DNA of 64,000 nt from Pythium myriotylum (lineage: Eukaryota; Oomycota; Peronosporomycetes; Pythiales; Pythiaceae), in assembly GCA_023091665.1 (NCBI GenBank), contig JALJCQ010000007.1, positions 496,001-560,000 of the forward strand. Reading direction: 5' to 3'. The notes under the pieces are model-generated. The model made no database searches. It was not told the origin of the DNA and saw only the letters and a list, made by a program, of their open reading frames with translations. This document shows, in pieces, positions 11,777 through 52,583 of this stretch. The position numbers and the translations under genes are program-made. The stretch's first letter is position 1; every line of letters starts with the position of its first letter.

Positions 11777-11832
<56 letters not shown>

Positions 11833-18845: not shown

Positions 18846-18984
18846 CCAAATCTTCAGATTGCTGGTCAACTTGGCAAAATCAATGATGATGCCAAGTTGG
18901 TCAGCACTCTAAAGATTTGGAAACGTGGATTGGGTGAAAGCTCCCCATGAGATTATCATTGCGAGCTTTCACCCAATCCACGTT
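18846..18984. repeat. Two adjacent inverted-repeat hairpins
   Basis: Hairpin 1 has a 30-bp imperfect arm at 18846-18875 (CCAAATCTTCAGATTGCTGG...) pairing with 18891-18920. Hairpin 2 has a 21-bp perfect arm, AACGTGGATTGGGTGAAAGC plus T, at 18922-18942, pairing with 18964-18984. The loops are 15 and 21 nt. They sit about 425 bp 5' of the split MULE start. They may be termini of small non-autonomous transposons or a structured RNA; the sequence does not decide. Confidence 0.75.
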
Positions 18985-19408
18985 GCCTTTTCTTACTTCC
19001 CTGGCTGCGATTGGCGGACTCGAAGTTGGAGATTCAGTGAGATCCTCGATCTGTGCTGGATCATCCCTCCGGATATTATTCCACAACATTGAGCAGGAGT
19101 CTAAGTCAATATCATACGTGTTTTGGTACGTCATCAAACGTTTCCGGATCAACACCAATCAAAAATGGACAGCTGCAAAAAATGGACACTCCTTCAGACA
19201 CCATCAAACACATTTAGGCTCTCCAACAACCCTACCACGGGAAAACATTCGCATTTGGTGTGAACCACCTCACGCGAGAAAGCAAACCAGAATTAGTGTG
19301 ACCCACGTAACGAAGTGCAGACCTGGACACCACCTCCCACACCATTCACGAAACATCAGTCACAACGTGCAGCCCAACCCAGCTCCTCTCCGACGACCAC
19401 CACGCGCA

Positions 19409-19872
19409 ATGACAATTCAATGGACTAGCATCGGCTCGTTTAGTAATGAAGACGACTACACTAAATTCCGAGTGGAAAACTTTTGCTGCTCCATCATCTA
19501 CACGAAGCGATCTCTAGTGTGCGCTGTGTGTCCAGGGGGCCACGAGATGATTGAGCGACGTCTACGCTGCAACAGCGAAACATGCGACGCACGATTGGAC
19601 GGACAACATGGGTGTCCTGTCCGCTGGAAGGTGCGCATGTGCCCAGTGACGTCGATTTGGGTCGTCCAAACCAACGGTCTCGAGCATACACGAGGCTCCC
19701 AGTCCTGTGCTGTTCCACCTCGACCGATGATTACGCCGGCTGTACTTGACTTCATTGTACGTGAAGAGTACAAAGAGACTGCACCTCGAAACATTTGGAG
19801 CAACCTCTTGCGAGCGCCAGATGTAAAAGAGCCCGTACTCGGCTATCCGTCTCATACCCAAGTCCAGCGTTG
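19409..19872 (+). pseudogene. Split MULE transposase, N-terminal half (interrupted by retroelement A)
   Basis: ATG at 19409 (MTIQWTSIGSF). A zinc-binding domain follows (CCSIIY, CAVCPGGHE, ERRLRCNSETC, CPVRWKVRMC), then FIVREEYKETAPR and GYPSHTQVQR, where the retroelement LTR begins at 19873. The frame then runs on into LTR sequence and stops at 20041; those residues are spurious. The matching C-terminal half is at 46505-44392 on the other strand. After removing one copy of the 4-bp target duplication, 464 nt here plus 2110 nt there give 2574 nt, exactly 858 codons including the stop, in frame through QVQR-W-LRGSKNS. No other lesion is seen in either half, so the transposase was probably intact when the retroelement landed. 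Confidence 0.85.
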
Positions 19873-22800
19873 TGTGATGAAGTGCGCTGCCTTTTCGCTA
19901 GCTTCTGGAGCTGGAAAAGGGTATAGACCTAGCGTGTATATGGGGAATACACGCAGGCGAACTTGGGTCCGTTGTGAAAACCCAAGTTCTGGCTTCGTAC
20001 CTCACGTTATGTATCCCTTGACCGGTTCTTTTGAGCTTTGAAGTATGGGGAAATACGTCCACTTGGAGTATTCCACCAACCCAAGATGGCTCAACCAGCT
20101 CTAGGTAACGATGAGGACCAGTCTTTTAATACACAAATACAAACGACACACTTAGACCCAGGACGGAAGACTAACTTCGATCCGCTGGGTCTCGCCTGGG
20201 ACGGAGGACAACCTCGATCCGCCAGGACACTGGGAATCCCCTCTGGGATCTGGGAAACTCTCTCTCAATCAAATGAAGTGTATTACTTTAACTGGGGAAC
20301 TACGACCAGTTCCCAGCTATCGCAACACAAGAATACGCAAGAATATGGAGTGCTCCAGGTCTCTAGTACAAACTAGTAGCTTCCCATCCTTCTTCCTAGC
20401 CTTCGACTGGCTCGAAGCTGCCTCGGCTTGGTCTTGGAGGCTGGACTTGGTCTTACCAGCTCGCAAAGCGACGTCACCCAGATCGAGACTGCTGATACTA
20501 GCACGAGGTGAACCATACTCAGTGCTTCCTTTGCGCGGGCTAGCTCGGCGTGGGATTGCCGAGCCAGAAGGTTCCTTTTCTTCGTCGTCGTCAGGCATAA
20601 GCACACGCCGACGGACAGCGGAGGACTGCCCCATCTTGCCAACGACTTGCTGGCGTGAACCAGCTCCACGACCGCCAGAGCGGGTCGCAGGCTGGTTGGT
20701 GGTGCCGGAACGCTGACTAGCTTCCTGGACACCGGTCGACTGGTCTTCATCTACCACAAACGAGAATGGTTTGACCATCTCGGCCTGGTTAGTGTCAGAC
20801 TCACCAATAGCGGACATACTCGCACGACCAGTACTAGCTCCTGGCATACGCACCAGTTGTGATGAAGTGCGCTGCCTTTTCGCTAGCTTCTGGAGCTGGA
20901 GAAGGGTATAGACCTAGCGTGTATATGGGGAATACACGCAGGCGAACTTGGGTCCGTTGTGAAAACCCAAGTTCTGGCTTCGTACCTCACGTTATGTATC
21001 CCTTGGCCGGTTCTTTTGAGCTTTGAAGTATGGGGAAATACGTCCACTTGGAGTATTCCACCAACCCAAGATGGCTCAACCAGCTCTAGGTAACGATGAG
21101 GACCAGTCTTTTAATACACAAATACAAACGACACACTTAGACCCAGGACGGAAGACTAACTTCGATCCGCTGGGTCTCGCCTGGGACGGAGGACAACCTC
21201 GATCCGCCAGGACACTGGGAATCCCCTCTGGGATCTGGGAAACTCTCTCTCAATCAAATGAAGTGTATTACTTTAACTGGGGAACTACGACCAGTTCCCA
21301 GCTATCGCAACACAAGAATACGCAAGAATATGGAGTGCTCCAGGTCTCTAGTACAAACTAGTAGCTTCCCATCCTTCTTCCTAGCCTTCGACTGGCTCGA
21401 AGCTGCCTCGGCTTGGTCTTGGAGGCTGGACTTGGTCTTACCAGCTCGCAAAGCGACGTCACCCAGATCGAGACTGCTGATACTAGCACGAGGTGAACCA
21501 TACTCAGTGCTTCCTTTGCGCGGGCTAGCTCGGCGTGGGATTGCCGAGCCAGAAGGTTCCTTTTCTTCGTCGTCGTCAGGCATAAGCACACGCCGACGGA
21601 CAGCGGAGGACTGCCCCATCTTGCCAACGACTTGCTGGCGTGAACCAGCTCCACGACCGCCAGAGCGGGTCGCAGGCTGGTTGGTGGTGCCGGAACGCTG
21701 ACTAGCTTCCTGGACACCGGTCGACTGGTCTTCATCTACCACAAACGAGAATGGTTTGACCATCTCGGCCTGGTTAGTGTCAGACTCACCAATAGCGGAC
21801 ATACTCGCACGACCAGTACTAGCTCCTGGCATACGCACCAGTTGTGATGAAGTGCGCTGCCTTTTCGCTAGCTTCTGGAGCTGGAGAAGGGTATAGACCT
21901 AGCGTGTATATGGGGAATACACGCAGGCGAACTTGGGTCCGTTGTGAAAACCCAAGTTCTGGCTTCGTACCTCACGTTATGTATCCCTTGGCCGGTTCTT
22001 TTGAGCTTTGAAGTATGGGGAAATACGTCCACTTGGAGTATTCCACCAACCCAAGATGGCTCAACCAGCTCTAGGTAACGATGAGGACCAGTCTTTTAAT
22101 ACACAAATACAAACGACACACTTAGACCCAGGACGGAAGACTAACTTCGATCCGCTGGGTCTCGCCTGGGACGGAGGACAACCTCGATCCGCCAGGACAC
22201 TGGGAATCCCCTCTGGGATCTGGGAAACTCTCTCTCAATCAAATGAAGTGTATTACTTTAACTGGGGAACTACGACCAGTTCCCAGCTATCGCAACACAA
22301 GAATACGCAAGAATATGGAGTGCTCCAGGTCTCTAGTACAAACTAGTAGCTTCCCATCCTTCTTCCTAGCCTTCGACTGGCTCGAAGCTGCCTCGGCTTG
22401 GTCTTGGAGGCTGGACTTGGTCTTACCAGCTCGCAAAGCGACGTCACCCAGATCGAGACTGCTGATACTAGCACGAGGTGAACCATACTCAGTGCTTCCT
22501 TTGCGCGGGCTAGCTCGGCGTGGGATTGCCGAGCCAGAAGGTTCCTTTTCTTCGTCGTCGTCAGGCATAAGCACACGCCGACGGACAGCGGAGGACTGCC
22601 CCATCTTGCCAACGACTTGCTGGCGTGAACCAGCTCCACGACCGCCAGAGCGGGTCGCAGGCTGGTTGGTGGTGCCGGAACGCTGACTAGCTTCCTGGAC
22701 ACCGGTCGACTGGTCTTCATCTACCACAAACGAGAATGGTTTGACCATCTCGGCCTGGTTAGTGTCAGACTCACCAATAGCGGACATACTCGCACGACCA

Positions 22801-25800
22801 GTACTAGCTCCTGGCATACGCACCAGTTGTGATGAAGTGCGCTGCCTTTTCGCTAGCTTCTGGAGCTGGAGAAGGGTATAGACCTAGCGTGTATATGGGG
22901 AATACACGCAGGCGAACTTGGGTCCGTTGTGAAAACCCAAGTTCTGGCTTCGTACCTCACGTTATGTATCCCTTGGCCGGTTCTTTTGAGCTTTGAAGTA
23001 TGGGGAAATACGTCCACTTGGAGTATTCCACCAACCCAAGATGGCTCAACCAGCTCTAGGTAACGATGAGGACCAGTCTTTTAATACACAAATACAAACG
23101 ACACACTTAGACCCAGGACGGAAGACTAACTTCGATCCGCTGGGTCTCGCCTGGGACGGAGGACAACCTCGATCCGCCAGGACACTGGGAATCCCCTCTG
23201 GGATCTGGGAAACTCTCTCTCAATCAAATGAAGTGTATTACTTTAACTGGGGAACTACGACCAGTTCCCAGCTATCGCAACACAAGAATACGCAAGAATA
23301 TGGAGTGCTCCAGGTCTCTAGTACAAACTAGTAGCTTCCCATCCTTCTTCCTAGCCTTCGACTGGCTCGAAGCTGCCTCGGCTTGGTCTTGGAGGCTGGA
23401 CTTGGTCTTACCAGCTCGCAAAGCGACGTCACCCAGATCGAGACTGCTGATACTAGCACGAGGTGAACCATACTCAGTGCTTCCTTTGCGCGGGCTAGCT
23501 CGGCGTGGGATTGCCGAGCCAGAAGGTTCCTTTTCTTCGTCGTCGTCAGGCATAAGCACACGCCGACGGACAGCGGAGGACTGCCCCATCTTGCCAACGA
23601 CTTGCTGGCGTGAACCAGCTCCACGACCGCCAGAGCGGGTCGCAGGCTGGTTGGTGGTGCCGGAACGCTGACTAGCTTCCTGGACACCGGTCGACTGGTC
23701 TTCATCTACCACAAACGAGAATGGTTTGACCATCTCGGCCTGGTTAGTGTCAGACTCACCAATAGCGGACATACTCGCACGACCAGTACTAGCTCCTGGC
23801 ATACGCACCAGTTGTGATGAAGTGCGCTGCCTTTTCGCTAGCTTCTGGAGCTGGAGAAGGGTATAGACCTAGCGTGTATATGGGGAATACACGCAGGCGA
23901 ACTTGGGTCCGTTGTGAAAACCCAAGTTCTGGCTTCGTACCTCACGTTATGTATCCCTTGGCCGGTTCTTTTGAGCTTTGAAGTATGGGGAAATACGTCC
24001 ACTTGGAGTATTCCACCAACCCAAGATGGCTCAACCAGCTCTAGGTAACGATGAGGACCAGTCTTTTAATACACAAATACAAACGACACACTTAGACCCA
24101 GGACGGAAGACTAACTTCGATCCGCTGGGTCTCGCCTGGGACGGAGGACAACCTCGATCCGCCAGGACACTGGGAATCCCCTCTGGGATCTGGGAAACTC
24201 TCTCTCAATCAAATGAAGTGTATTACTTTAACTGGGGAACTACGACCAGTTCCCAGCTATCGCAACACAAGAATACGCAAGAATATGGAGTGCTCCAGGT
24301 CTCTAGTACAAACTAGTAGCTTCCCATCCTTCTTCCTAGCCTTCGACTGGCTCGAAGCTGCCTCGGCTTGGTCTTGGAGGCTGGACTTGGTCTTACCAGC
24401 TCGCAAAGCGACGTCACCCAGATCGAGACTGCTGATACTAGCACGAGGTGAACCATACTCAGTGCTTCCTTTGCGCGGGCTAGCTCGGCGTGGGATTGCC
24501 GAGCCAGAAGGTTCCTTTTCTTCGTCGTCGTCAGGCATAAGCACACGCCGACGGACAGCGGAGGACTGCCCCATCTTGCCAACGACTTGCTGGCGTGAAC
24601 CAGCTCCACGACCGCCAGAGCGGGTCGCAGGCTGGTTGGTGGTGCCGGAACGCTGACTAGCTTCCTGGACACCGGTCGACTGGTCTTCATCTACCACAAA
24701 CGAGAATGGTTTGACCATCTCGGCCTGGTTAGTGTCAGACTCACCAATAGCGGACATACTCGCACGACCAGTACTAGCTCCTGGCATACGCACCAGTTGT
24801 GATGAAGTGCGCTGCCTTTTCGCTAGCTTCTGGAGCTGGAAAAGGGTATAGACCTAGCGTGTATATGGGGAATACACGCAGGCGAACTTGGGTCCGTTGT
24901 GAAAACCCAAGTTCTGGCTTCGTACCTCACGTTATGTATCCCTTGGCCGGTTCTTTTGAGCTTTGAAGTATGGGGAAATACGTCCACTTGGAGTATTCCA
25001 CCAACCCAAGATGGCTCAACCAGCTCTAGGTAACGATGAGGACCAGTCTTTTAATACACAAATACAAACGACACACTTAGACCCAGGACGGAAGACTAAC
25101 TTCGATCCGCTGGGTCTCGCCTGGGACGGAGGACAACCTCGATCCGCCAGGACACTGGGAATCCCCTCTGGGATCTGGGAAACTCTCTCTCAATCAAATG
25201 AAGTGTATTACTTTAACTGGGGAACTACGACCAGTTCCCAGCTATCGCAACACAAGAATACGCAAGAATATGGAGTGCTCCAGGTCTCTAGTACAAACTA
25301 GTAGCTTCCCATCCTTCTTCCTAGCCTTCGACTGGCTCGAAGCTGCCTCGGCTTGGTCTTGGAGGCTGGACTTGGTCTTACCAGCTCGCAAAGCGACGTC
25401 ACCCAGATCGAGACTGCTGATACTAGCACGAGGTGAACCATACTCAGTGCTTCCTTTGCGCGGGCTAGCTCGGCGTGGGATTGCCGAGCCAGAAGGTTCC
25501 TTTTCTTCGTCGTCGTCAGGCATAAGCACACGCCGACGGACAGCGGAGGACTGCCCCATCTTGCCAACGACTTGCTGGCGTGAACCAGCTCCACGACCGC
25601 CAGAGCGGGTCGCAGGCTGGTTGGTGGTGCCGGAACGCTGACTAGCTTCCTGGACACCGGTCGACTGGTCTTCATCTACCACAAACGAGAATGGTTTGAC
25701 CATCTCGGCCTGGTTAGTGTCAGACTCACCAATAGCGGACATACTCGCACGACCAGTACTAGCTCCTGGCATACGCACCAGTTGTGATGAAGTGCGCTGC

Positions 25801-28800
25801 CTTTTCGCTAGCTTCTGGAGCTGGAGAAGGGTATAGACCTAGCGTGTATATGGGGAATACACGCAGGCGAACTTGGGTCCGTTGTGAAAACCCAAGTTCT
25901 GGCTTCGTACCTCACGTTATGTATCCCTTGGCCGGTTCTTTTGAGCTTTGAAGTATGGGGAAATACGTCCACTTGGAGTATTCCACCAACCCAAGATGGC
26001 TCAACCAGCTCTAGGTAACGATGAGGACCAGTCTTTTAATACACAAATACAAACGACACACTTAGACCCAGGACGGAAGACTAACTTCGATCCGCTGGGT
26101 CTCGCCTGGGACGGAGGACAACCTCGATCCGCCAGGACACTGGGAATCCCCTCTGGGATCTGGGAAACTCTCTCTCAATCAAATGAAGTGTATTACTTTA
26201 ACTGGGGAACTACGACCAGTTCCCAGCTATCGCAACACAAGAATACGCAAGAATATGGAGTGCTCCAGGTCTCTAGTACAAACTAGTAGCTTCCCATCCT
26301 TCTTCCTAGCCTTCGACTGGCTCGAAGCTGCCTCGGCTTGGTCTTGGAGGCTGGACTTGGTCTTACCAGCTCGCAAAGCGACGTCACCCAGATCGAGACT
26401 GCTGATACTAGCACGAGGTGAACCATACTCAGTGCTTCCTTTGCGCGGGCTAGCTCGGCGTGGGATTGCCGAGCCAGAAGGTTCCTTTTCTTCGTCGTCG
26501 TCAGGCATAAGCACACGCCGACGGACAGCGGAGGACTGCCCCATCTTGCCAACGACTTGCTGGCGTGAACCAGCTCCACGACCGCCAGAGCGGGTCGCAG
26601 GCTGGTTGGTGGTGCCGGAACGCTGACTAGCTTCCTGGACACCGGTCGACTGGTCTTCATCTACCACAAACGAGAATGGTTTGACCATCTCGGCCTGGTT
26701 AGTGTCAGACTCACCAATAGCGGACATACTCGCACGACCAGTACTAGCTCCTGGCATACGCACCAGTTGTGATGAAGTGCGCTGCCTTTTCGCTAGCTTC
26801 TGGAGCTGGAGAAGGGTATAGACCTAGCGTGTATATGGGGAATACACGCAGGCGAACTTGGGTCCGTTGTGAAAACCCAAGTTCTGGCTTCGTACCTCAC
26901 GTTATGTATCCCTTGGCCGGTTCTTTTGAGCTTTGAAGTATGGGGAAATACGTCCACTTGGAGTATTCCACCAACCCAAGATGGCTCAACCAGCTCTAGG
27001 TAACGATGAGGACCAGTCTTTTAATACACAAATACAAACGACACACTTAGACCCAGGACGGAAGACTAACTTCGATCCGCTGGGTCTCGCCTGGGACGGA
27101 GGACAACCTCGATCCGCCAGGACACTGGGAATCCCCTCTGGGATCTGGGAAACTCTCTCTCAATCAAATGAAGTGTATTACTTTAACTGGGGAACTACGA
27201 CCAGTTCCCAGCTATCGCAACACAAGAATACGCAAGAATATGGAGTGCTCCAGGTCTCTAGTACAAACTAGTAGCTTCCCATCCTTCTTCCTAGCCTTCG
27301 ACTGGCTCGAAGCTGCCTCGGCTTGGTCTTGGAGGCTGGACTTGGTCTTACCAGCTCGCAAAGCGACGTCACCCAGATCGAGACTGCTGATACTAGCACG
27401 AGGTGAACCATACTCAGTGCTTCCTTTGCGCGGGCTAGCTCGGCGTGGGATTGCCGAGCCAGAAGGTTCCTTTTCTTCGTCGTCGTCAGGCATAAGCACA
27501 CGCCGACGGACAGCGGAGGACTGCCCCATCTTGCCAACGACTTGCTGGCGTGAACCAGCTCCACGACCGCCAGAGCGGGTCGCAGGCTGGTTGGTGGTGC
27601 CGGAACGCTGACTAGCTTCCTGGACACCGGTCGACTGGTCTTCATCTACCACAAACGAGAATGGTTTGACCATCTCGGCCTGGTTAGTGTCAGACTCACC
27701 AATAGCGGACATACTCGCACGACCAGTACTAGCTCCTGGCATACGCACCAGTTGTGATGAAGTGCGCTGCCTTTTCGCTAGCTTCTGGAGCTGGAGAAGG
27801 GTATAGACCTAGCGTGTATATGGGGAATACACGCAGGCGAACTTGGGTCCGTTGTGAAAACCCAAGTTCTGGCTTCGTACCTCACGTTATGTATCCCTTG
27901 GCCGGTTCTTTTGAGCTTTGAAGTATGGGGAAATACGTCCACTTGGAGTATTCCACCAACCCAAGATGGCTCAACCAGCTCTAGGTAACGATGAGGACCA
28001 GTCTTTTAATACACAAATACAAACGACACACTTAGACCCAGGACGGAAGACTAACTTCGATCCGCTGGGTCTCGCCTGGGACGGAGGACAACCTCGATCC
28101 GCCAGGACACTGGGAATCCCCTCTGGGATCTGGGAAACTCTCTCTCAATCAAATGAAGTGTATTACTTTAACTGGGGAACTACGACCAGTTCCCAGCTAT
28201 CGCAACACAAGAATACGCAAGAATATGGAGTGCTCCAGGTCTCTAGTACAAACTAGTAGCTTCCCATCCTTCTTCCTAGCCTTCGACTGGCTCGAAGCTG
28301 CCTCGGCTTGGTCTTGGAGGCTGGACTTGGTCTTACCAGCTCGCAAAGCGACGTCACCCAGATCGAGACTGCTGATACTAGCACGAGGTGAACCATACTC
28401 AGTGCTTCCTTTGCGCGGGCTAGCTCGGCGTGGGATTGCCGAGCCAGAAGGTTCCTTTTCTTCGTCGTCGTCAGGCATAAGCACACGCCGACGGACAGCG
28501 GAGGACTGCCCCATCTTGCCAACGACTTGCTGGCGTGAACCAGCTCCACGACCGCCAGAGCGGGTCGCAGGCTGGTTGGTGGTGCCGGAACGCTGACTAG
28601 CTTCCTGGACACCGGTCGACTGGTCTTCATCTACCACAAACGAGAATGGTTTGACCATCTCGGCCTGGTTAGTGTCAGACTCACCAATAGCGGACATACT
28701 CGCACGACCAGTACTAGCTCCTGGCATACGCACCAGTTGTGATGAAGTGCGCTGCCTTTTCGCTAGCTTCTGGAGCTGGAGAAGGGTATAGACCTAGCGT

Positions 28801-31800
28801 GTATATGGGGAATACACGCAGGCGAACTTGGGTCCGTTGTGAAAACCCAAGTTCTGGCTTCGTACCTCACGTTATGTATCCCTTGGCCGGTTCTTTTGAG
28901 CTTTGAAGTATGGGGAAATACGTCCACTTGGAGTATTCCACCAACCCAAGATGGCTCAACCAGCTCTAGGTAACGATGAGGACCAGTCTTTTAATACACA
29001 AATACAAACGACACACTTAGACCCAGGACGGAAGACTAACTTCGATCCGCTGGGTCTCGCCTGGGACGGAGGACAACCTCGATCCGCCAGGACACTGGGA
29101 ATCCCCTCTGGGATCTGGGAAACTCTCTCTCAATCAAATGAAGTGTATTACTTTAACTGGGGAACTACGACCAGTTCCCAGCTATCGCAACACAAGAATA
29201 CGCAAGAATATGGAGTGCTCCAGGTCTCTAGTACAAACTAGTAGCTTCCCATCCTTCTTCCTAGCCTTCGACTGGCTCGAAGCTGCCTCGGCTTGGTCTT
29301 GGAGGCTGGACTTGGTCTTACCAGCTCGCAAAGCGACGTCACCCAGATCGAGACTGCTGATACTAGCACGAGGTGAACCATACTCAGTGCTTCCTTTGCG
29401 CGGGCTAGCTCGGCGTGGGATTGCCGAGCCAGAAGGTTCCTTTTCTTCGTCGTCGTCAGGCATAAGCACACGCCGACGGACAGCGGAGGACTGCCCCATC
29501 TTGCCAACGACTTGCTGGCGTGAACCAGCTCCACGACCGCCAGAGCGGGTCGCAGGCTGGTTGGTGGTGCCGGAACGCTGACTAGCTTCCTGGACACCGG
29601 TCGACTGGTCTTCATCTACCACAAACGAGAATGGTTTGACCATCTCGGCCTGGTTAGTGTCAGACTCACCAATAGCGGACATACTTGCACGACCAGTACT
29701 AGCTCCTGGCATACGCACCAGTTGTGATGAAGTGCGCTGCCTTTTCGCTAGCTTCTGGAGCTGGAGAAGGGTATAGACCTAGCGTGTATATGGGGAATAC
29801 ACGCAGGCGAACTTGGGTCCGTTGTGAAAACCCAAGTTCTGGCTTCGTACCTCACGTTATGTATCCCTTGGCCGGTTCTTTTGAGCTTTGAAGTATGGGG
29901 AAATACGTCCACTTGGAGTATTCCACCAACCCAAGATGGCTCAACCAGCTCTAGGTAACGATGAGGACCAGTCTTTTAATACACAAATACAAACGACACA
30001 CTTAGACCCAGGACGGAAGACTAACTTCGATCCGCTGGGTCTCGCCTGGGACGGAGGACAACCTCGATCCGCCAGGACACTGGGAATCCCCTCTGGGATC
30101 TGGGAAACTCTCTCTCAATCAAATGAAGTGTATTACTTTAACTGGGGAACTACGACCAGTTCCCAGCTATCGCAACACAAGAATACGCAAGAATATGGAG
30201 TGCTCCAGGTCTCTAGTACAAACTAGTAGCTTCCCATCCTTCTTCCTAGCCTTCGACTGGCTCGAAGCTGCCTCGGCTTGGTCTTGGAGGCTGGACTTGG
30301 TCTTACCAGCTCGCAAAGCGACGTCACCCAGATCGAGACTGCTGATACTAGCACGAGGTGAACCATACTCAGTGCTTCCTTTGCGCGGGCTAGCTCGGCG
30401 TGGGATTGCCGAGCCAGAAGGTTCCTTTTCTTCGTCGTCGTCAGGCATAAGCACACGCCGACGGACAGCGGAGGACTGCCCCATCTTGCCAACGACTTGC
30501 TGGCGTGAACCAGCTCCACGACCGCCAGAGCGGGTCGCAGGCTGGTTGGTGGTGCCGGAACGCTGACTAGCTTCCTGGACACCGGTCGACTGGTCTTCAT
30601 CTACCACAAACGAGAATGGTTTGACCATCTCGGCCTGGTTAGTGTCAGACTCACCAATAGCGGACATACTCGCACGACCAGTACTAGCTCCTGGCATACG
30701 CACCAGTTGTGATGAAGTGCGCTGCCTTTTCGCTAGCTTCTGGAGCTGGAGAAGGGTATAGACCTAGCGTGTATATGGGGAATACACGCAGGCGAACTTG
30801 GGTCCGTTGTGAAAACCCAAGTTCTGGCTTCGTACCTCACGTTATGTATCCCTTGGCCGGTTCTTTTGAGCTTTGAAGTATGGGGAAATACGTCCACTTG
30901 GAGTATTCCACCAACCCAAGATGGCTCAACCAGCTCTAGGTAACGATGAGGACCAGTCTTTTAATACACAAATACAAACGACACACTTAGACCCAGGACG
31001 GAAGACTAACTTCGATCCGCTGGGTCTCGCCTGGGACGGAGGACAACCTCGATCCGCCAGGACACTGGGAATCCCCTCTGGGATCTGGGAAACTCTCTCT
31101 CAATCAAATGAAGTGTATTACTTTAACTGGGGAACTACGACCAGTTCCCAGCTATCGCAACACAAGAATACGCAAGAATATGGAGTGCTCCAGGTCTCTA
31201 GTACAAACTAGTAGCTTCCCATCCTTCTTCCTAGCCTTCGACTGGCTCGAAGCTGCCTCGGCTTGGTCTTGGAGGCTGGACTTGGTCTTACCAGCTCGCA
31301 AAGCGACGTCACCCAGATCGAGACTGCTGATACTAGCACGAGGTGAACCATACTCAGTGCTTCCTTTGCGCGGGCTAGCTCGGCGTGGGATTGCCGAGCC
31401 AGAAGGTTCCTTTTCTTCGTCGTCGTCAGGCATAAGCACACGCCGACGGACAGCGGAGGACTGCCCCATCTTGCCAACGACTTGCTGGCGTGAACCAGCT
31501 CCACGACCGCCAGAGCGGGTCGCAGGCTGGTTGGTGGTGCCGGAACGCTGACTAGCTTCCTGGACACCGGTCGACTGGTCTTCATCTACCACAAACGAGA
31601 ATGGTTTGACCATCTCGGCCTGGTTAGTGTCAGACTCACCAATAGCGGACATACTCGCACGACCAGTACTAGCTCCTGGCATACGCACCAGTTGTGATGA
31701 AGTGCGCTGCCTTTTCGCTAGCTTCTGGAGCTGGAGAAGGGTATAGACCTAGCGTGTATATGGGGAATACACGCAGGCGAACTTGGGTCCGTTGTGAAAA

Positions 31801-34800
31801 CCCAAGTTCTGGCTTCGTACCTCACGTTATGTATCCCTTGGCCGGTTCTTTTGAGCTTTGAAGTATGGGGAAATACGTCCACTTGGAGTATTCCACCAAC
31901 CCAAGATGGCTCAACCAGCTCTAGGTAACGATGAGGACCAGTCTTTTAATACACAAATACAAACGACACACTTAGACCCAGGACGGAAGACTAACTTCGA
32001 TCCGCTGGGTCTCGCCTGGGACGGAGGACAACCTCGATCCGCCAGGACACTGGGAATCCCCTCTGGGATCTGGGAAACTCTCTCTCAATCAAATGAAGTG
32101 TATTACTTTAACTGGGGAACTACGACCAGTTCCCAGCTATCGCAACACAAGAATACGCAAGAATATGGAGTGCTCCAGGTCTCTAGTACAAACTAGTAGC
32201 TTCCCATCCTTCTTCCTAGCCTTCGACTGGCTCGAAGCTGCCTCGGCTTGGTCTTGGAGGCTGGACTTGGTCTTACCAGCTCGCAAAGCGACGTCACCCA
32301 GATCGAGACTGCTGATACTAGCACGAGGTGAACCATACTCAGTGCTTCCTTTGCGCGGGCTAGCTCGGCGTGGGATTGCCGAGCCAGAAGGTTCCTTTTC
32401 TTCGTCGTCGTCAGGCATAAGCACACGCCGACGGACAGCGGAGGACTGCCCCATCTTGCCAACGACTTGCTGGCGTGAACCAGCTCCACGACCGCCAGAG
32501 CGGGTCGCAGGCTGGTTGGTGGTGCCGGAACGCTGACTAGCTTCCTGGACACCGGTCGACTGGTCTTCATCTACCACAAACGAGAATGGTTTGACCATCT
32601 CGGCCTGGTTAGTGTCAGACTCACCAATAGCGGACATACTCGCACGACCAGTACTAGCTCCTGGCATACGCACCAGTTGTGATGAAGTGCGCTGCCTTTT
32701 CGCTAGCTTCTGGAGCTGGAGAAGGGTATAGACCTAGCGTGTATATGGGGAATACACGCAGGCGAACTTGGGTCCGTTGTGAAAACCCAAGTTCTGGCTT
32801 CGTACCTCACGTTATGTATCCCTTGGCCGGTTCTTTTGAGCTTTGAAGTATGGGGAAATACGTCCACTTGGAGTATTCCACCAACCCAAGATGGCTCAAC
32901 CAGCTCTAGGTAACGATGAGGACCAGTCTTTTAATACACAAATACAAACGACACACTTAGACCCAGGACGGAAGACTAACTTCGATCCGCTGGGTCTCGC
33001 CTGGGACGGAGGACAACCTCGATCCGCCAGGACACTGGGAATCCCCTCTGGGATCTGGGAAACTCTCTCTCAATCAAATGAAGTGTATTACTTTAACTGG
33101 GGAACTACGACCAGTTCCCAGCTATCGCAACACAAGAATACGCAAGAATATGGAGTGCTCCAGGTCTCTAGTACAAACTAGTAGCTTCCCATCCTTCTTC
33201 CTAGCCTTCGACTGGCTCGAAGCTGCCTCGGCTTGGTCTTGGAGGCTGGACTTGGTCTTACCAGCTCGCAAAGCGACGTCACCCAGATCGAGACTGCTGA
33301 TACTAGCACGAGGTGAACCATACTCAGTGCTTCCTTTGCGCGGGCTAGCTCGGCGTGGGATTGCCGAGCCAGAAGGTTCCTTTTCTTCGTCGTCGTCAGG
33401 CATAAGCACACGCCGACGGACAGCGGAGGACTGCCCCATCTTGCCAACGACTTGCTGGCGTGAACCAGCTCCACGACCGCCAGAGCGGGTCGCAGGCTGG
33501 TTGGTGGTGCCGGAACGCTGACTAGCTTCCTGGACACCGGTCGACTGGTCTTCATCTACCACAAACGAGAATGGTTTGACCATCTCGGCCTGGTTAGTGT
33601 CAGACTCACCAATAGCGGACATACTCGCACGACCAGTACTAGCTCCTGGCATACGCACCAGTTGTGATGAAGTGCGCTGCCTTTTCGCTAGCTTCTGGAG
33701 CTGGAGAAGGGTATAGACCTAGCGTGTATATGGGGAATACACGCAGGCGAACTTGGGTCCGTTGTGAAAACCCAAGTTCTGGCTTCGTACCTCACGTTAT
33801 GTATCCCTTGGCCGGTTCTTTTGAGCTTTGAAGTATGGGGAAATACGTCCACTTGGAGTATTCCACCAACCCAAGATGGCTCAACCAGCTCTAGGTAACG
33901 ATGAGGACCAGTCTTTTAATACACAAATACAAACGACACACTTAGACCCAGGACGGAAGACTAACTTCGATCCGCTGGGTCTCGCCTGGGACGGAGGACA
34001 ACCTCGATCCGCCAGGACACTGGGAATCCCCTCTGGGATCTGGGAAACTCTCTCTCAATCAAATGAAGTGTATTACTTTAACTGGGGAACTACGACCAGT
34101 TCCCAGCTATCGCAACACAAGAATACGCAAGAATATGGAGTGCTCCAGGTCTCTAGTACAAACTAGTAGCTTCCCATCCTTCTTCCTAGCCTTCGACTGG
34201 CTCGAAGCTGCCTCGGCTTGGTCTTGGAGGCTGGACTTGGTCTTACCAGCTCGCAAAGCGACGTCACCCAGATCGAGACTGCTGATACTAGCACGAGGTG
34301 AACCATACTCAGTGCTTCCTTTGCGCGGGCTAGCTCGGCGTGGGATTGCCGAGCCAGAAGGTTCCTTTTCTTCGTCGTCGTCAGGCATAAGCACACGCCG
34401 ACGGACAGCGGAGGACTGCCCCATCTTGCCAACGACTTGCTGGCGTGAACCAGCTCCACGACCGCCAGAGCGGGTCGCAGGCTGGTTGGTGGTGCCGGAA
34501 CGCTGACTAGCTTCCTGGACACCGGTCGACTGGTCTTCATCTACCACAAACGAGAATGGTTTGACCATCTCGGCCTGGTTAGTGTCAGACTCACCAATAG
34601 CGGACATACTCGCACGACCAGTACTAGCTCCTGGCATACGCACCAGTTGTGATGAAGTGCGCTGCCTTTTCGCTAGCTTCTGGAGCTGGAGAAGGGTATA
34701 GACCTAGCGTGTATATGGGGAATACACGCAGGCGAACTTGGGTCCGTTGTGAAAACCCAAGTTCTGGCTTCGTACCTCACGTTATGTATCCCTTGGCCGG

Positions 34801-37800
34801 TTCTTTTGAGCTTTGAAGTATGGGGAAATACGTCCACTTGGAGTATTCCACCAACCCAAGATGGCTCAACCAGCTCTAGGTAACGATGAGGACCAGTCTT
34901 TTAATACACAAATACAAACGACACACTTAGACCCAGGACGGAAGACTAACTTCGATCCGCTGGGTCTCGCCTGGGACGGAGGACAACCTCGATCCGCCAG
35001 GACACTGGGAATCCCCTCTGGGATCTGGGAAACTCTCTCTCAATCAAATGAAGTGTATTACTTTAACTGGGGAACTACGACCAGTTCCCAGCTATCGCAA
35101 CACAAGAATACGCAAGAATATGGAGTGCTCCAGGTCTCTAGTACAAACTAGTAGCTTCCCATCCTTCTTCCTAGCCTTCGACTGGCTCGAAGCTGCCTCG
35201 GCTTGGTCTTGGAGGCTGGACTTGGTCTTACCAGCTCGCAAAGCGACGTCACCCAGATCGAGACTGCTGATACTAGCACGAGGTGAACCATACTCAGTGC
35301 TTCCTTTGCGCGGGCTAGCTCGGCGTGGGATTGCCGAGCCAGAAGGTTCCTTTTCTTCGTCGTCGTCAGGCATAAGCACACGCCGACGGACAGCGGAGGA
35401 CTGCCCCATCTTGCCAACGACTTGCTGGCGTGAACCAGCTCCACGACCGCCAGAGCGGGTCGCAGGCTGGTTGGTGGTGCCGGAACGCTGACTAGCTTCC
35501 TGGACACCGGTCGACTGGTCTTCATCTACCACAAACGAGAATGGTTTGACCATCTCGGCCTGGTTAGTGTCAGACTCACCAATAGCGGACATACTCGCAC
35601 GACCAGTACTAGCTCCTGGCATACGCACCAGTTGTGATGAAGTGCGCTGCCTTTTCGCTAGCTTCTGGAGCTGGAGAAGGGTATAGACCTAGCGTGTATA
35701 TGGGGAATACACGCAGGCGAACTTGGGTCCGTTGTGAAAACCCAAGTTCTGGCTTCGTACCTCACGTTATGTATCCCTTGGCCGGTTCTTTTGAGCTTTG
35801 AAGTATGGGGAAATACGTCCACTTGGAGTATTCCACCAACCCAAGATGGCTCAACCAGCTCTAGGTAACGATGAGGACCAGTCTTTTAATACACAAATAC
35901 AAACGACACACTTAGACCCAGGACGGAAGACTAACTTCGATCCGCTGGGTCTCGCCTGGGACGGAGGACAACCTCGATCCGCCAGGACACTGGGAATCCC
36001 CTCTGGGATCTGGGAAACTCTCTCTCAATCAAATGAAGTGTATTACTTTAACTGGGGAACTACGACCAGTTCCCAGCTATCGCAACACAAGAATACGCAA
36101 GAATATGGAGTGCTCCAGGTCTCTAGTACAAACTAGTAGCTTCCCATCCTTCTTCCTAGCCTTCGACTGGCTCGAAGCTGCCTCGGCTTGGTCTTGGAGG
36201 CTGGACTTGGTCTTACCAGCTCGCAAAGCGACGTCACCCAGATCGAGACTGCTGATACTAGCACGAGGTGAACCATACTCAGTGCTTCCTTTGCGCGGGC
36301 TAGCTCGGCGTGGGATTGCCGAGCCAGAAGGTTCCTTTTCTTCGTCGTCGTCAGGCATAAGCACACGCCGACGGACAGCGGAGGACTGCCCCATCTTGCC
36401 AACGACTTGCTGGCGTGAACCAGCTCCACGACCGCCAGAGCGGGTCGCAGGCTGGTTGGTGGTGCCGGAACGCTGACTAGCTTCCTGGACACCGGTCGAC
36501 TGGTCTTCATCTACCACAAACGAGAATGGTTTGACCATCTCGGCCTGGTTAGTGTCAGACTCACCAATAGCGGACATACTCGCACGACCAGTACTAGCTC
36601 CTGGCATACGCACCAGTTGTGATGAAGTGCGCTGCCTTTTCGCTAGCTTCTGGAGCTGGAGAAGGGTATAGACCTAGCGTGTATATGGGGAATACACGCA
36701 GGCGAACTTGGGTCCGTTGTGAAAACCCAAGTTCTGGCTTCGTACCTCACGTTATGTATCCCTTGGCCGGTTCTTTTGAGCTTTGAAGTATGGGGAAATA
36801 CGTCCACTTGGAGTATTCCACCAACCCAAGATGGCTCAACCAGCTCTAGGTAACGATGAGGACCAGTCTTTTAATACACAAATACAAACGACACACTTAG
36901 ACCCAGGACGGAAGACTAACTTCGATCCGCTGGGTCTCGCCTGGGACGGAGGACAACCTCGATCCGCCAGGACACTGGGAATCCCCTCTGGGATCTGGGA
37001 AACTCTCTCTCAATCAAATGAAGTGTATTACTTTAACTGGGGAACTACGACCAGTTCCCAGCTATCGCAACACAAGAATACGCAAGAATATGGAGTGCTC
37101 CAGGTCTCTAGTACAAACTAGTAGCTTCCCATCCTTCTTCCTAGCCTTCGACTGGCTCGAAGCTGCCTCGGCTTGGTCTTGGAGGCTGGACTTGGTCTTA
37201 CCAGCTCGCAAAGCGACGTCACCCAGATCGAGACTGCTGATACTAGCACGAGGTGAACCATACTCAGTGCTTCCTTTGCGCGGGCTAGCTCGGCGTGGGA
37301 TTGCCGAGCCAGAAGGTTCCTTTTCTTCGTCGTCGTCAGGCATAAGCACACGCCGACGGACAGCGGAGGACTGCCCCATCTTGCCAACGACTTGCTGGCG
37401 TGAACCAGCTCCACGACCGCCAGAGCGGGTCGCAGGCTGGTTGGTGGTGCCGGAACGCTGACTAGCTTCCTGGACACCGGTCGACTGGTCTTCATCTACC
37501 ACAAACGAGAATGGTTTGACCATCTCGGCCTGGTTAGTGTCAGACTCACCAATAGCGGACATACTCGCACGACCAGTACTAGCTCCTGGCATACGCACCA
37601 GTTGTGATGAAGTGCGCTGCCTTTTCGCTAGCTTCTGGAGCTGGAGAAGGGTATAGACCTAGCGTGTATATGGGGAATACACGCAGGCGAACTTGGGTCC
37701 GTTGTGAAAACCCAAGTTCTGGCTTCGTACCTCACGTTATGTATCCCTTGGCCGGTTCTTTTGAGCTTTGAAGTATGGGGAAATACGTCCACTTGGAGTA

Positions 37801-39572
37801 TTCCACCAACCCAAGATGGCTCAACCAGCTCTAGGTAACGATGAGGACCAGTCTTTTAATACACAAATACAAACGACACACTTAGACCCAGGACGGAAGA
37901 CTAACTTCGATCCGCTGGGTCTCGCCTGGGACGGAGGACAACCTCGATCCGCCAGGACACTGGGAATCCCCTCTGGGATCTGGGAAACTCTCTCTCAATC
38001 AAATGAAGTGTATTACTTTAACTGGGGAACTACGACCAGTTCCCAGCTATCGCAACACAAGAATACGCAAGAATATGGAGTGCTCCAGGTCTCTAGTACA
38101 AACTAGTAGCTTCCCATCCTTCTTCCTAGCCTTCGACTGGCTCGAAGCTGCCTCGGCTTGGTCTTGGAGGCTGGACTTGGTCTTACCAGCTCGCAAAGCG
38201 ACGTCACCCAGATCGAGACTGCTGATACTAGCACGAGGTGAACCATACTCAGTGCTTCCTTTGCGCGGGCTAGCTCGGCGTGGGATTGCCGAGCCAGAAG
38301 GTTCCTTTTCTTCGTCGTCGTCAGGCATAAGCACACGCCGACGGACAGCGGAGGACTGCCCCATCTTGCCAACGACTTGCTGGCGTGAACCAGCTCCACG
38401 ACCGCCAGAGCGGGTCGCAGGCTGGTTGGTGGTGCCGGAACGCTGACTAGCTTCCTGGACACCGGTCGACTGGTCTTCATCTACCACAAACGAGAATGGT
38501 TTGACCATCTCGGCCTGGTTAGTGTCAGACTCACCAATAGCGGACATACTCGCACGACCAGTACTAGCTCCTGGCATACGCACCAGTTGTGATGAAGTGC
38601 GCTGCCTTTTCGCTAGCTTCTGGAGCTGGAGAAGGGTATAGACCTAGCGTGTATATGGGGAATACACGCAGGCGAACTTGGGTCCGTTGTGAAAACCCAA
38701 GTTCTGGCTTCGTACCTCACGTTATGTATCCCTTGGCCGGTTCTTTTGAGCTTTGAAGTATGGGGAAATACGTCCACTTGGAGTATTCCACCAACCCAAG
38801 ATGGCTCAACCAGCTCTAGGTAACGATGAGGACCAGTCTTTTAATACACAAATACAAACGACACACTTAGACCCAGGACGGAAGACTAACTTCGATCCGC
38901 TGGGTCTCGCCTGGGACGGAGGACAACCTCGATCCGCCAGGACACTGGGAATCCCCTCTGGGATCTGGGAAACTCTCTCTCAATCAAATGAAGTGTATTA
39001 CTTTAACTGGGGAACTACGACCAGTTCCCAGCTATCGCAACACAAGAATACGCAAGAATATGGAGTGCTCCAGGTCTCTAGTACAAACTAGTAGCTTCCC
39101 ATCCTTCTTCCTAGCCTTCGACTGGCTCGAAGCTGCCTCGGCTTGGTCTTGGAGGCTGGACTTGGTCTTACCAGCTCGCAAAGCGACGTCACCCAGATCG
39201 AGACTGCTGATACTAGCACGAGGTGAACCATACTCAGTGCTTCCTTTGCGCGGGCTAGCTCGGCGTGGGATTGCCGAGCCAGAAGGTTCCTTTTCTTCGT
39301 CGTCGTCAGGCATAAGCACACGCCGACGGACAGCGGAGGACTGCCCCATCTTGCCAACGACTTGCTGGCGTGAACCAGCTCCACGACCGCCAGAGCGGGT
39401 CGCAGGCTGGTTGGTGGTGCCGGAACGCTGACTAGCTTCCTGGACACCGGTCGACTGGTCTTCATTTACCACAAACGAGAATGGTTTGACCATCTCGGCC
39501 TGGTTAGTGTCAGACTCACCAATAGCGGACATACTCGCACGACCAGTACTAGCTCCTGGCATACGCACCAGT
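19873..39572 (-). repeat. 985-bp macrosatellite, 20 units (3' LTR part + primer site + truncated gag)
   Basis: Each unit, on the minus strand, is 479 bp of internal sequence (spacer, primer-site region and the first 469 nt of gag from its ATG) joined to the 3' 506 bp of the LTR. The junction is gag ...GGGAAGC | TACTAGTTTG... LTR; no obvious microhomology is present beyond a base or so. The leftmost LTR part is 19873-20378 and its gag part 20379-20857. Units are almost identical: the only differences I saw are single bases, such as GGAAAAGGG at about 19912 and 24838 (GGAGAAGGG elsewhere), CTTGACC at about 20018, a T at about 29686 and a T at about 39466. The apparent frames on the opposite strand repeat with the unit and are not genes. 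Confidence 0.95.
39032..39562 (-). CDS. Truncated Gag ORF carried by every array unit (representative copy)
   Basis: One of 25 equivalent frames (20 in array A at 985-bp spacing, 5 in element B). From the ATG it encodes 176 residues: the first 156 are the N-terminus of the element B Gag (MPGASTGRASMSAIGESD...), then about 20 residues from LTR sequence (LLVCTRDLEHSIFLRILVLR), then a stop. It is Ser/Gly/Arg-rich with a DDDEEKE acidic patch, and lacks the capsid core and zinc knuckles. This copy differs from the others by Asp to Asn (T at about 39466). Each unit also contains the 3' part of the LTR upstream of the next ORF, so separate transcription is conceivable. Whether any copy is expressed is unknown. 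A truncated Gag could interfere with full Gag; that is inference. Confidence 0.5.
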   Translation of the reverse strand: MPGASTGRASMSAIGESDTNQAEMVKPFSFVVNEDQSTGVQEASQRSGTTNQPATRSGGRGAGSRQQVVGKMGQSSAVRRRVLMPDDDEEKEPSGSAIPRRASPRKGSTEYGSPRASISSLDLGDVALRAGKTKSSLQDQAEAASSQSKARKKDGKLLVCTRDLEHSIFLRILVLR

Positions 39573-40703
39573 TGTGATGAAGTGCGCTGCCTTTTCGCTA
39601 GCTTCTGGAGCTGGAGAAGGGTATAGACCTAGCGTGTATATGGGGAATACACGCAGGCGAACTTGGGTCCGTTGTGAAAACCCAAGTTCTGGCTTCGTAC
39701 CTCACGTTATGTATCCCTTGGCCGGTTCTTTTGAGCTTTGAAGTATGGGGAAATACGTCCACTTGGAGTATTCCACCAACCCAAGATGGCTCAACCAGCT
39801 CTAGGTAACGATGAGGACCAGTCTTTTAATACACAAATACAAACGACACACTTAGACCCAGGACGGAAGACTAACTTCGACCCGCTGGGTCTCGCCTGGG
39901 ACGGAGGACAACCTCGATCCGCCAGGACACTGGGAATCCCCTCTGGGATCTGGGAAACTCTCTCTCAATCAAATGAAGTGTATTACTTTAACTGGGGAAC
40001 TACGACCAGTTCCCAGCTATCGCAACACAAGAATACGCAAGAATATGGAGTGCTCCAGGTCTCTAGTACAAACTAGTACCCTTTGCAGGTGCCTCAAGGG
40101 CTGGAAAGGGGGTTGGCTCCTCTCCTCACTCGCAAACACACCAATACCCACGCACCAGCAGCCAGACACACGCGCACACAGTCCACTACGGTAAATCCAA
40201 CACACGCAGGCTTACCTTGTGGTGTAGACGCTTGGTCCTCCCGCGGTTCGACGGAGGAGACTTGGGGGGTTGAGAGCAAAAAAGCGAAGTCTTTTGAATA
40301 GAGAATAAAACCTCAAGGGGAGCCAGGAACTGGCTCCCTGAACCCTACCTACTTAACTACCAGATCTGATAAGAACCCTACTCTGTGTGGTCTAACTGGA
40401 AATTGCACAATCCGAACTGGGAAAACCGGTAAAAACCAGTTTCCGGAATGGATGAATCTGGTCAACATCCGGAGGGAGCCAGCTCAAGCCAGACAGAAAA
40501 TCACCCACTGGGAAGGTCCTGTGGATGAATCCAGCTCTTGGCACACTGTGCCAAACTGGAAAGGTGGGTGAGTAGCTGGTACAGTGTACCAGGCTACCGC
40601 CACCTACTAACTCTTGTCATTTAATTTCCTAGCCAACTAATCTAGCCCTGTGCCAGCTCCTGGGGCCTGGCCAGGCTGCAAAAGACGCGGGCACTTTATC
40701 ACA
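39573..40703 (-). repeat. Full-length LTR of retroelement A (5' LTR)
   Basis: 1131 bp, starting TGTGATAAAGTGC (minus strand, from 40703) and ending GCGCACTTCATCACA at 39573, a 13-bp terminal inverted repeat with one transition. It has the same length as the 5' LTR of element B and shares variants with it, for example GACCCG at about 39880 where every array unit and the 3' LTR of B have GATCCG. Inside it is a good 5' splice-site match (AAGGTAAGC, about 40215, minus strand). Confidence 0.9.
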
Positions 40704-40869
40704 ATTGCAGCACAGAGTCCACCCGCTACCGATGCCCGAGCAGTCAGACGCATGCAGCATGAACCCGGGGTAATCTGGATAAATCGAAGTCAGCGCAGTT
40801 GAGTGGGACCGGGAAGGATCTCAATGCGGGCATCGTTTGACCGGGCAATTAGTGCTTCCACCGCCTTCT

Positions 40870-41480
40870 CAAGAACCCGTGCGCCACCCATGATCTGCTT
40901 GAGGTTGGCCAACGAGTTCGACGATGGAGTTCGGGCACCCACCATTGTTCTTTACCGCCATGACCAGTTGCGACGGTGCCATACAGTAATGGCCCTCCAC
41001 TATCCATTCCTCCACGATTGCCATTGCTCGAGCAAAATGTGCGTCCAGCACCGACTTGCCATCTTGTGTCTCGCTGGGGATGAAATCCTCGATTGAGGCG
41101 CCGTACTGAGTCAGCAGGTACGGTAGAAATGAAGTAGCATGACGTTGCTGTAGCAGGATGCGTTGTCATTCTGGAGGGTGATTCGCTTGATATGGGGCAA
41201 CTCCTCGCAAAGTCGGATAAGAACCGCTTCGAGGATCGAGATGACATACCCTTTGTCTTGCCACCGCCATCGGAAATATGTTCAATGTATATGCGTTCAT
41301 CGACGGCAAGCGGGTCAGCCTCGTCACCCTAGAAACTGAACGAGTGGATCATCGCACCATACCGATTGAGGGTAGGGACTACTTTCACGTAAACTTTGGC
41401 AGACTTGCGAGTTAGGGAAATTTTGGACGACTTTCAAACTTGAGGGGAAGCGATTCGAGTTCGACTGTGGGATGGAATGG
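40870..41480 (-). pseudogene. Degraded transposase-like remnant
   Basis: Pieces on the minus strand read ELPHIKRITLQNDNASCYSN and then ETQDGKSVLDAHFARAM, EEWIVEGHYCMAPSQ and NNGGCPNSIVEL. A pattern of D-N/G-A-x-C-Y-S followed by TQDGKSxxDxHFAxAM occurs in transposase-like proteins dispersed in oomycete and some animal genomes; I do not know a formal family name. The frame changes several times and stops occur, so it is not functional. It lies in the inverted 5.8-kb segment, next to LTR A. Confidence 0.45.
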
Positions 41481-41579
41481 AATCGAGTACCACCGGGGCT
41501 ACTAATCATGTGCCCACAGTACCATATGAGACAGTCCAGCTAATTCCTTCAATGAATTGACTACTTGAAGTCACTAGAA

Positions 41580-42330
41580 TGAACTTCAACGTCAAGGAGT
41601 TACAACTTAAGTGTGCACCTCGTTCGGATGATCCTGCTTTGGTATATATAATATCCAATCAGCTGCTTCCCTTTTTGGGTCAGAAGTTTCGCACTCTCAG
41701 GGCCGCTGAGCGGTCGTTTTATAGGTCGGTTATGAGGGCTCCACAGAGCAGCGACGTATGTGCTGCCACTTCACACAGTCAAGTCTGGTTTGAAGAACTG
41801 TATGCTCTTTGCCCAAGGGACTCGTGGTTCGCGTCCAAGGCTGGACGATTTCTGAGCCCAACTAAAATGCTCTCGAAACATTCAACGCGACTATTAAAAA
41901 GGCGTGCATCTCCGGCCTTTGCGCTAACACTGCTACCTTTTTGGAGACATCGCTCCTGGGTGTTCTAACAGTCTGCGGCACCCTCCAGTCGAAATCCAAG
42001 AAGCACTTTTTCGGTCACTACAGAGGGGATTTTGGTGGCAAGGAACGCCTCGTACACCTCGAGGATGTTACCAGTGTGAAGCGTGAACATACTATACAGC
42101 TGTCTGGACGCGAAGAAGTCATTGACGGCCTCCTCTTGTTCCCAGCGCCTGGGCTTTCGGATCAGCTGGCGCAACATTCGCACCGCCTATGGTTCAAGCT
42201 CCAAACGACGGCGGGTTTCTTCCCAGCTTTCGTACGCAGGCGCATAAGGGCGGGTCCCTTCTCCTTGCCAGTTTGTATACCAAACACTCCTTCATCACGC
42301 CGTCGACTAAAACCTGCTTCACAGTGATAT
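41580..42330 (+). pseudogene. Possible transposase fragment
   Basis: Two overlapping + frames can be read together: WFEELYALCPRDSWFASKAG, then after a frame change NALETFNATIKKACISG and TATFLETSLLGVL. The N-x-LE-x-FNATIKK string resembles the segment after the catalytic domain in MULE-type transposases. No catalytic motif is present. The rest to 42330 is unassigned. Confidence 0.3.
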
Positions 42331-42543
42331 TGGCAGGTGGCTTCGTTCTTGTCATCTTGATTGTCTTGTGGGTCAACTGCTCAATGAGTAGAGTACGTCG
42401 TCAAACATCATAACGGCCATCATCAAACAATCACGGAGGCCACCATCAAACATTCGAGCAAAACCGGTGCAACTGCTACCACACCAGAAACACATCCCGT
42501 CACTTCACACTATATTATTAGCAGATTGACCCTTCGTTGTCAT

Positions 42544-44002: not shown

Positions 44003-44028
44003 ATTCGAGACTGGTGCGATAGAAATTG

Positions 44029-44110
44029 ATTGCGTTTTGCTGCCGCGTGTCTTGTTCGGGTTTTGCTGCTACGTGTCAGTATTTCGGGTTTTGCTCAATG
44101 AGTTGATGTG
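44029..44110. repeat. 27-bp minisatellite, upstream cluster
   Basis: The same 27-bp unit (CGGGTTTTGCTGCTACGTGT...) recurs at 44057 and 44084, with a diverged copy from about 44030, in the same orientation as the internal cluster but just upstream of the gene start. Confidence 0.7.
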
Positions 44111-44391
44111 TGACGCTGGGTAGCAAAGCATACAATGCACACACAGGTCAAGTCGAAGATACGTAGTGGTTGGCTCCACGACGTGTGATGACAAGTTCGA
44201 ATGCTTGGGTAGCTTTGCAAAATGGAGTAAATGATCTTTTGGTAGCCTAGATGTGCCCACGCACCTCCAGCTGCATTGACGTCTACTCAATGATAAGGCA
44301 ATTTTGTAGACCACATGTTACATGTTACTTGTTCACCTTGAAGTGCTCGTTGGTTGTGAGTATTACAACTCGTATATAAGTGCACTTGTTG
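44110..44391. other. Non-coding spacer
   Basis: Anonymous sequence between the start side of the HTH-Ulp1 pseudogene and the stop of the split MULE. It probably holds the 3' terminus of the MULE, not identified. Confidence 0.35.
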
Positions 44392-52573: not shown

Positions 52574-52583
52574 ACTGGTGCGT

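Follow-up and report, generated by a model that had tools for sequence, protein, structure and literature searches.

Introduction

In maize, part of a long terminal repeat (LTR) and the adjoining untranslated region (UTR) of centromeric Ty3/gypsy retrotransposons have given rise to the tandem repeats CRM1TR and CRM4TR (PMC3648361). The average length of the CRM1TR monomer is 696 nt at one of its loci and 819 nt at the other, and the short direct repeats needed for one-step recombination were not found at the CRM1TR/CRM4TR junction; its authors proposed an LTR-UTR~LTR intermediate followed by growth through gene conversion (or unequal exchange), and considered the splitting of one CRM1TR cluster into two (PMC3648361). 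Retrotransposon-derived satellites are usually observed long after the event. Solo LTRs and inter-element recombinants without target duplication, which are LTR-bounded remnants with mismatched flanks, point to recombination between two insertions. Here we describe a locus of the oomycete Pythium myriotylum, contained in a 64,000-nucleotide stretch hereafter called the window (assembly GCA_023091665.1, contig JALJCQ010000007.1, positions 496,001 to 560,000, forward strand), in which a 20-unit array derived from an LTR retrotransposon (E1) lies 5.8 kb from a longer element (E2) carrying five inverted copies of the same unit. Our data suggest that the two arrays are probably the halves of one repeat of ~25 units, which grew in the 5′ end of a retrotransposon (Y) and was split 20/5 by an inversion arising from a crossover with an inverted solo LTR (X). 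What survives here is the parent element together with a nearly unmutated array, the likely partner in recombination, and the two sites of insertion. An initial annotation of E1 had stated that no described element had this architecture; the maize repeats provide a precedent, making the locus a striking but precedented way from mobile element to satellite-like repeat.

Results

E1 occupies positions 19873 to 40703 on the minus strand and measures 20,831 bp, exactly the 1131 + 20 × 985 bp bounded by LTR termini that had been proposed in the initial annotation. Read on the minus strand, it starts with TGTGATAAAGTGC and ends with GCACTTCATCACA. The first 625 bp of the LTR (40079..40703) are followed by 20 units (20379..40078), all of 985 bp, and by a last LTR half of 506 bp (19873..20378). 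Each unit comprises LTR positions 626 to 1131 (506 bp) and then 479 bp of internal sequence, namely the primer site and the start of gag, and this composition also agrees with the initial annotation. The primer site begins 2 nt past the LTR end and is complementary at 18/18 nt to the 3′ end, including CCA, of a tRNA-His(GTG) of the same genome; a tRNA scan of the 64-kb window found none. As the initial annotation had noted, differences among units are few: 17 of the 20 are identical, and the other three carry one or two private changes. Unit similarity is far too high for chance, and the array would be either very recent or homogenized. The unit number is given as assembled.

The same unit recurs, inverted relative to E1, in five copies on the plus strand at the 5′ end of E2, a gypsy-type element (46506..62441, plus strand). 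LTR positions 1 to 625 (46506..47130) precede five junction-bearing units of 985, 989, 989, 989, and 985 bp (47131..52067), with a 4-bp insertion common to units 2 to 4. A sixth LTR 3′ half (52068..52573) then runs into the full gag, preceded by the primer binding site TGGTGCGTATGCCAGGAG (52576..52593; the same 18/18 match as in the units, which repeat it), and the 3′ LTR of E2 (61313..62441, 1129 bp) is plain, without any array. The founding junction, GGGAAGC|TACTAGTTTG, was thus counted 20 times on the minus strand and 5 times on the plus strand (48.1 to 52.1 kb). The initial annotation mentioned neither this second array, borne by a longer element, nor the inverted spacer described below, nor the fact that no exact target duplication surrounds E1 as assembled.

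The distribution of the junction was then examined across the 58.7-Mb assembly, for which all counts are lower bounds. The search for the gag-LTR junction suggested in the initial annotation, made with a 77-bp query (40 of 85 candidates scored), gave 25 full-length matches, all at 100% identity and all within E1 (20) and E2 (5); the other 15 scored matches covered the LTR side alone, three of them inside the window. A gag query (40 of 55 candidates scored) recovered E2's own gag, 25 array pieces, and 14 other elements. Among these scored matches, the array was absent from all 14 other elements, in which the start of gag directly adjoins the LTR. Because both queries confined the junction to E1 and E2, the array represents an event found at one locus. 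The gag part of the unit showed 0/479 differences from E2's own gag, compared with 6 to 32 differences from the 13 other elements fetched with this region, indicating that the unit derives from E2's own element. A search of the viral_contigs collection for the exact 29-base junction pattern found no occurrence, a result of little weight for a eukaryotic sequence. Transposition of the whole array as one unit was considered and rejected, as its flanks come from different sites and no second copy was found among the scored candidates.

The flanks of both elements mismatch as assembled. E1 is bordered by GTTG (19869..19872) and ATTG (40704..40707; CAAT on the minus strand), and E2 by CAGC (46502..46505; GCTG on the minus strand) and CAAT (62442..62445). 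When the 5.8-kb spacer (40704..46505) is turned, the flanks become GTTG/GCTG around X and CAAT/CAAT, an exact duplication, around Y; 10 of the 11 family members with both ends pairable among the fetched loci carry a 4-bp target duplication. Turning the spacer also restores, at the X join, a single open MULE-transposase-like frame, the first half of which (18947..19872, plus strand) has no Pfam match of its own and the second half of which (44392..46505, minus strand), on the far side of the spacer, carries a MULE domain (PF10551, 7.9e-09). At the protein level, 36 of 46 matches, the two halves excluded, span this join from residue ≤80 to ≥120; two tandem arrays of near-identical copies account for 23 of these 36, and stops interrupt some of the others. 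The Y join of the un-inverted spacer is spanned by three paralogues of 76 to 80% identity (C1:1723236, C12:3943934, and C1:1587255). In the controls, both joins as assembled, no spanning paralogue was found, and one side was matched in each. Since paralogues and the reading frame fit the flanks solely when the spacer is turned, positions 40704 to 46505 are inverted relative to the ancestral order, and X would have interrupted the MULE-transposase-like gene. The second half of this gene had 19 protein matches, all at ≤49% identity; of the 12 with organism names, 11 were from Phytophthora and 1 from Pythium, which makes a host near Phytophthora among the oomycetes likely. MULE-transposase-like sequences also form tandem arrays at G000:C27:982660-1040699 (15 matches) and C18:1034498-1053681 (8), with a period mostly of ~2.67 kb.

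An assembly error in the unit number or in the spacer orientation is distinctly unlikely. Such an error is conceivable in principle, as 20.8 kb of near-identical units is longer than many reads. However, with the spacer un-inverted, X would be a solo LTR of 1.1 kb, short enough for any long read to cross, which makes a false inversion there unlikely, and the 5′ end of E2 should need reads of just ~8 kb. The 4-bp insertion common to three contiguous E2 units and the private changes in E1 units also speak against such an error. The assembly was probably made from long reads, judging from its 58.7 Mb in 55 contigs.

The alleles of the LTRs provided a further line of evidence on which LTR went where. 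The alignment comprised the first LTR of E1, both LTRs of E2, and 28 of 37 near-full-length matches outside the window (39 of 64 candidates scored). The last LTR half of E1 carries 358T and 463T, the state of the other LTRs (28/28 at site 358 and 26/28 at site 463), and 358C is found in every other LTR half of both arrays as well as in the 3′ LTR of E2. The first half in E2 reads 198G and then 358C, and the last half in E1 reads 198A and then 358T, as would be expected of the products of one reciprocal crossover between these sites, in which X exchanged with the 21st LTR half in Y's array. Site 216, which is C in the E1 first LTR and the E2 3′ LTR but T in the E2 first LTR and 27 of 28 others (C in 1/28), agrees with a derivation of the upstream LTR part of E1 from Y and of that of E2 from X; the last LTR half of E1 would likewise be the tail of X. 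X would have to have been a solo LTR, because neither product contains an X interior.

The initial annotation had regarded E1 as a self-standing 20-unit element. This view is difficult to maintain, given a longer element at a distance of 5.8 kb that bears a sister array, flanks that come from two ancestral sites and agree at only 3/4 bases (GTTG/ATTG) without an exact target duplication, a last LTR half bearing the alleles of another LTR, and a junction that the scored matches place at this locus only.

The founding junction itself joins ...GGGAAGC to TACTAGTTTG with, by inspection, no shared base on either side and hence no microhomology. Folding at both breakpoints did not exceed that of shuffled sequences (z of -0.32 and -0.47), and folding was rejected on this ground as the cause of the breaks. 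A DNA-level duplication within the integrated element is the likely founding event, favored over reverse transcription because the 3′ LTR of E2 is plain and the junction occurs at a single locus. Growth by unequal exchange or conversion is indicated by the near-identity of the units together with the 4-bp insertion common to three adjacent units; the founding duplication plus unequal crossing-over put forward in the initial annotation is a likely route.

An origin in reverse transcription, in which template switching from the RNA 5′ end onto the gag of a co-packaged RNA created the gag′|LTR junction and Y inserted with the repeat already in place, would account for a microhomology-free junction through an end-to-interior jump. 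It would also suit a unit that begins inside the LTR, where R could start, and for the tandem repeats of plant Ogre elements a published hypothesis invokes abnormal strand transfer between copies packaged together (PMC7004042). A strong-stop jump, however, should place the repeat in both LTRs, whereas the E2 3′ LTR is plain; moreover, the junction lies at one locus among the scored matches, and a transcription start at LTR position 626 is without evidence. We consider this origin unlikely. A CRM1TR-type origin in X appears quite unlikely as well. Under this scenario, the middle of the 3′ LTR of X became fused to gag′ through a deletion (LTR-gag′~LTR), unequal exchange enlarged the array there, and part of the array passed to Y by recombination, which gives 1131 + n × 985 bp with a proper LTR end directly and resembles the intermediate proposed for CRM1TR/CRM4TR (PMC3648361). 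The units, however, contain a gag′ identical to Y's own gag and carry 358C like the Y 3′ LTR, not the 358T of the X tail.

Several observations weigh against the inversion of a single array grown in Y as set out above. Counting site 823, the upstream LTR parts (first 625 bp) of E1 and E2 have 10 derived states in common, 9 substitutions and 1 indel, all of them absent from the E2 3′ LTR and from 28/28 other LTRs. Since both LTRs of one insertion start identical, an additional gene conversion between X and the 5′ LTR of Y is needed. Unit 16 of E1 also carries 463T, requiring another conversion or a mutation, and the combination 198G + 358T assigned to X is deduced, not seen in any LTR. The X target duplication contains one mismatch (GTTG/GCTG), the C14 copy, 1 of the 11 pairable family members, has no 4-bp duplication, and the E1 flanks as assembled agree at 3/4 bases as well; because of this last agreement, target duplications alone are modest evidence for an inversion. 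No paralogue of the X join was found at the DNA level, its support coming from the protein search, and the founding junction, with neither microhomology nor unusual folding, is not decisive. The shared states and unit 16 point to repeated exchange, which fits two inverted repeats 5.8 kb apart, and the order of the steps is uncertain given such exchange.

In its coding part, E2 follows the domain order CCHC, protease, RNase H-like, and integrase, the integrase match being below the Pfam cut-off. A 5′ gag frame of 232 amino acids (52578..53276), the first part of which is repeated in the units, has no Pfam match and is followed by a gag frame with a CCHC zinc knuckle (53364..55589; PF00098, 2e-07), the two being divided by a stop. 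The pol frame (55667..59242) encodes an aspartyl protease and an RNase H-like domain (RVT_3) and has no reverse transcriptase (RT) match. At 57366..57372, E2 lacks approximately 1.7 kb that other copies have; in the C8 copy, RT and RNase H lie in this stretch (RVT_1, 6.3e-22; RT_RNaseH, 1e-18). The integrase-like frame (59032..60357) ends in a weak chromodomain-like C terminus (E 0.044), with both rve and Chromo below their Pfam cut-offs. E2 and its family have paired LTRs starting with TG and ending with CA. On the basis of its sequence, E2 appears to be an RT-less, non-autonomous copy. The ~1.7-kb gap occurs at the same point in the C33 copy (39 of 91 candidates scored), and could reflect either a non-autonomous lineage or a mosaic; the LTRs of the C33 copy belong to another subtype than those of E2. 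A 39-bp direct duplication (60723-60797) lies between the E2 pol and 3′ LTR.

Other members of the family, and sequences related to its primer, also showed tandem arrangements. One family LTR (L061; G000:C12:388400-391400, minus strand) contains a different tandem repeat with a period of 499 bp, in which the first ~450 bp of the LTR occur in two extra copies, each followed by ~50 bp unseen in the ordinary LTR that comes next; this seems to be a second case of tandem growth within an LTR of this family. At G000:C8:1011893-1041197 (L053, L056, and L057), three LTRs are spaced at exactly 14,090 bp with one 4-bp duplication (CGAA) around the whole, apparently two tandem internal regions with a common middle LTR. 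All 56 exact matches to the pattern of the primer tRNA, tRNA-His(GTG), fall in one cluster at G000:C23:889688-1000449 (L062 to L067), with spacing mostly of ~1.5 kb; at L062, tRNA-Ala(AGC) is directly followed by tRNA-His, and another tRNA-Ala lies ~1.5 kb further. Elsewhere in the window, a run of 50 A (11779-11828) is perhaps the tail of a non-LTR retroelement.

Discussion

The sequence of events that we favor, an array grown in Y and divided by inversion, would have begun after the integration of Y, with a tandem duplication at the DNA level whose junction formed without microhomology. Growth to ~25 units could then have followed, by conversion or by unequal exchange between sister chromatids. 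Before the inversion, the order in Y would have been U3, the 25 units with their junctions, gag-pol, and finally the 3′ LTR. The spacer may subsequently have been inverted when the solo LTR X crossed over with the 21st LTR half of this array, yielding U3 + 20 units + the X tail (E1) on one side and the X U3 + 5 units + gag-pol + 3′ LTR (E2) on the other. With parent, array, likely partner, and insertion sites together at one locus, the steps from element to satellite can be tested, as can the part that inverted solo LTRs play when an array is cut and moved.

All 25 units hold an open frame for a truncated Gag N terminus that extends ~20 codons into the LTR (178 amino acids from GTG; 47131-52129 and every E1 unit). 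Given the parent gag, an open frame here is to be expected and does not show that it is used, and a search with the truncated-gag protein of one unit found no match at E 1e-3 (150 candidates). It is highly improbable that the locus represents a retrotransposon with an expandable 5′ array, in which R-U5, the primer site, and the gag start are repeated during reverse transcription, for which the promoter monomers of mouse LINE-1 offer a comparison. If this were true, each RNA would carry many primer sites, and truncated Gag could restrain the family in trans. We saw no sign of a selected function for the arrays and claim none; the truncated Gag frames of the units, their multiple primer sites, and whatever small RNAs may arise are possibly by-products.

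Among related systems, the Cassandra tandem arrays similarly have the LTR as repeat and internal sequence as spacer, with recombination proposed, but their parent is a small element that lacks gag and pol, of which they repeat the LTR and internal domain in at least 12 copies (PMC7215508). The Ogre-derived satellites of Lathyrus sativus also are arrays originating from tandem repeats inside LTR retrotransposons, although their source is the 3′ untranslated region, not the LTR, primer site, and gag (PMC7004042). E1 resembles solo LTRs and recombinant remnants in its mismatched flanks and differs from them in holding 20 tandem units. The likeness to CRM1TR/CRM4TR is closer in two respects: the monomer combines an LTR part with the adjoining internal region of one parent family, as in E1 and E2, and the internal~LTR junction lacks short direct repeats and is common to the monomers, here in 25/25 units. 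The maize repeats are described as monomer arrays at or near centromeres with a UTR as their internal part, whereas the unit at this locus includes gag coding sequence as well as the primer site. Of the two arrays here, that of E2 still runs on into gag-pol and a 3′ LTR, with E1 standing apart, and both can probably be traced to one specific inversion that involved two sites of insertion. No oomycete case of this architecture was found in the literature, judged by titles and the openings of abstracts. As far as the searched literature shows, what is new at this locus is a repeat unit with a primer site and gag coding sequence, an array of which half remains on its parent element, and a division that can be traced to an inversion.

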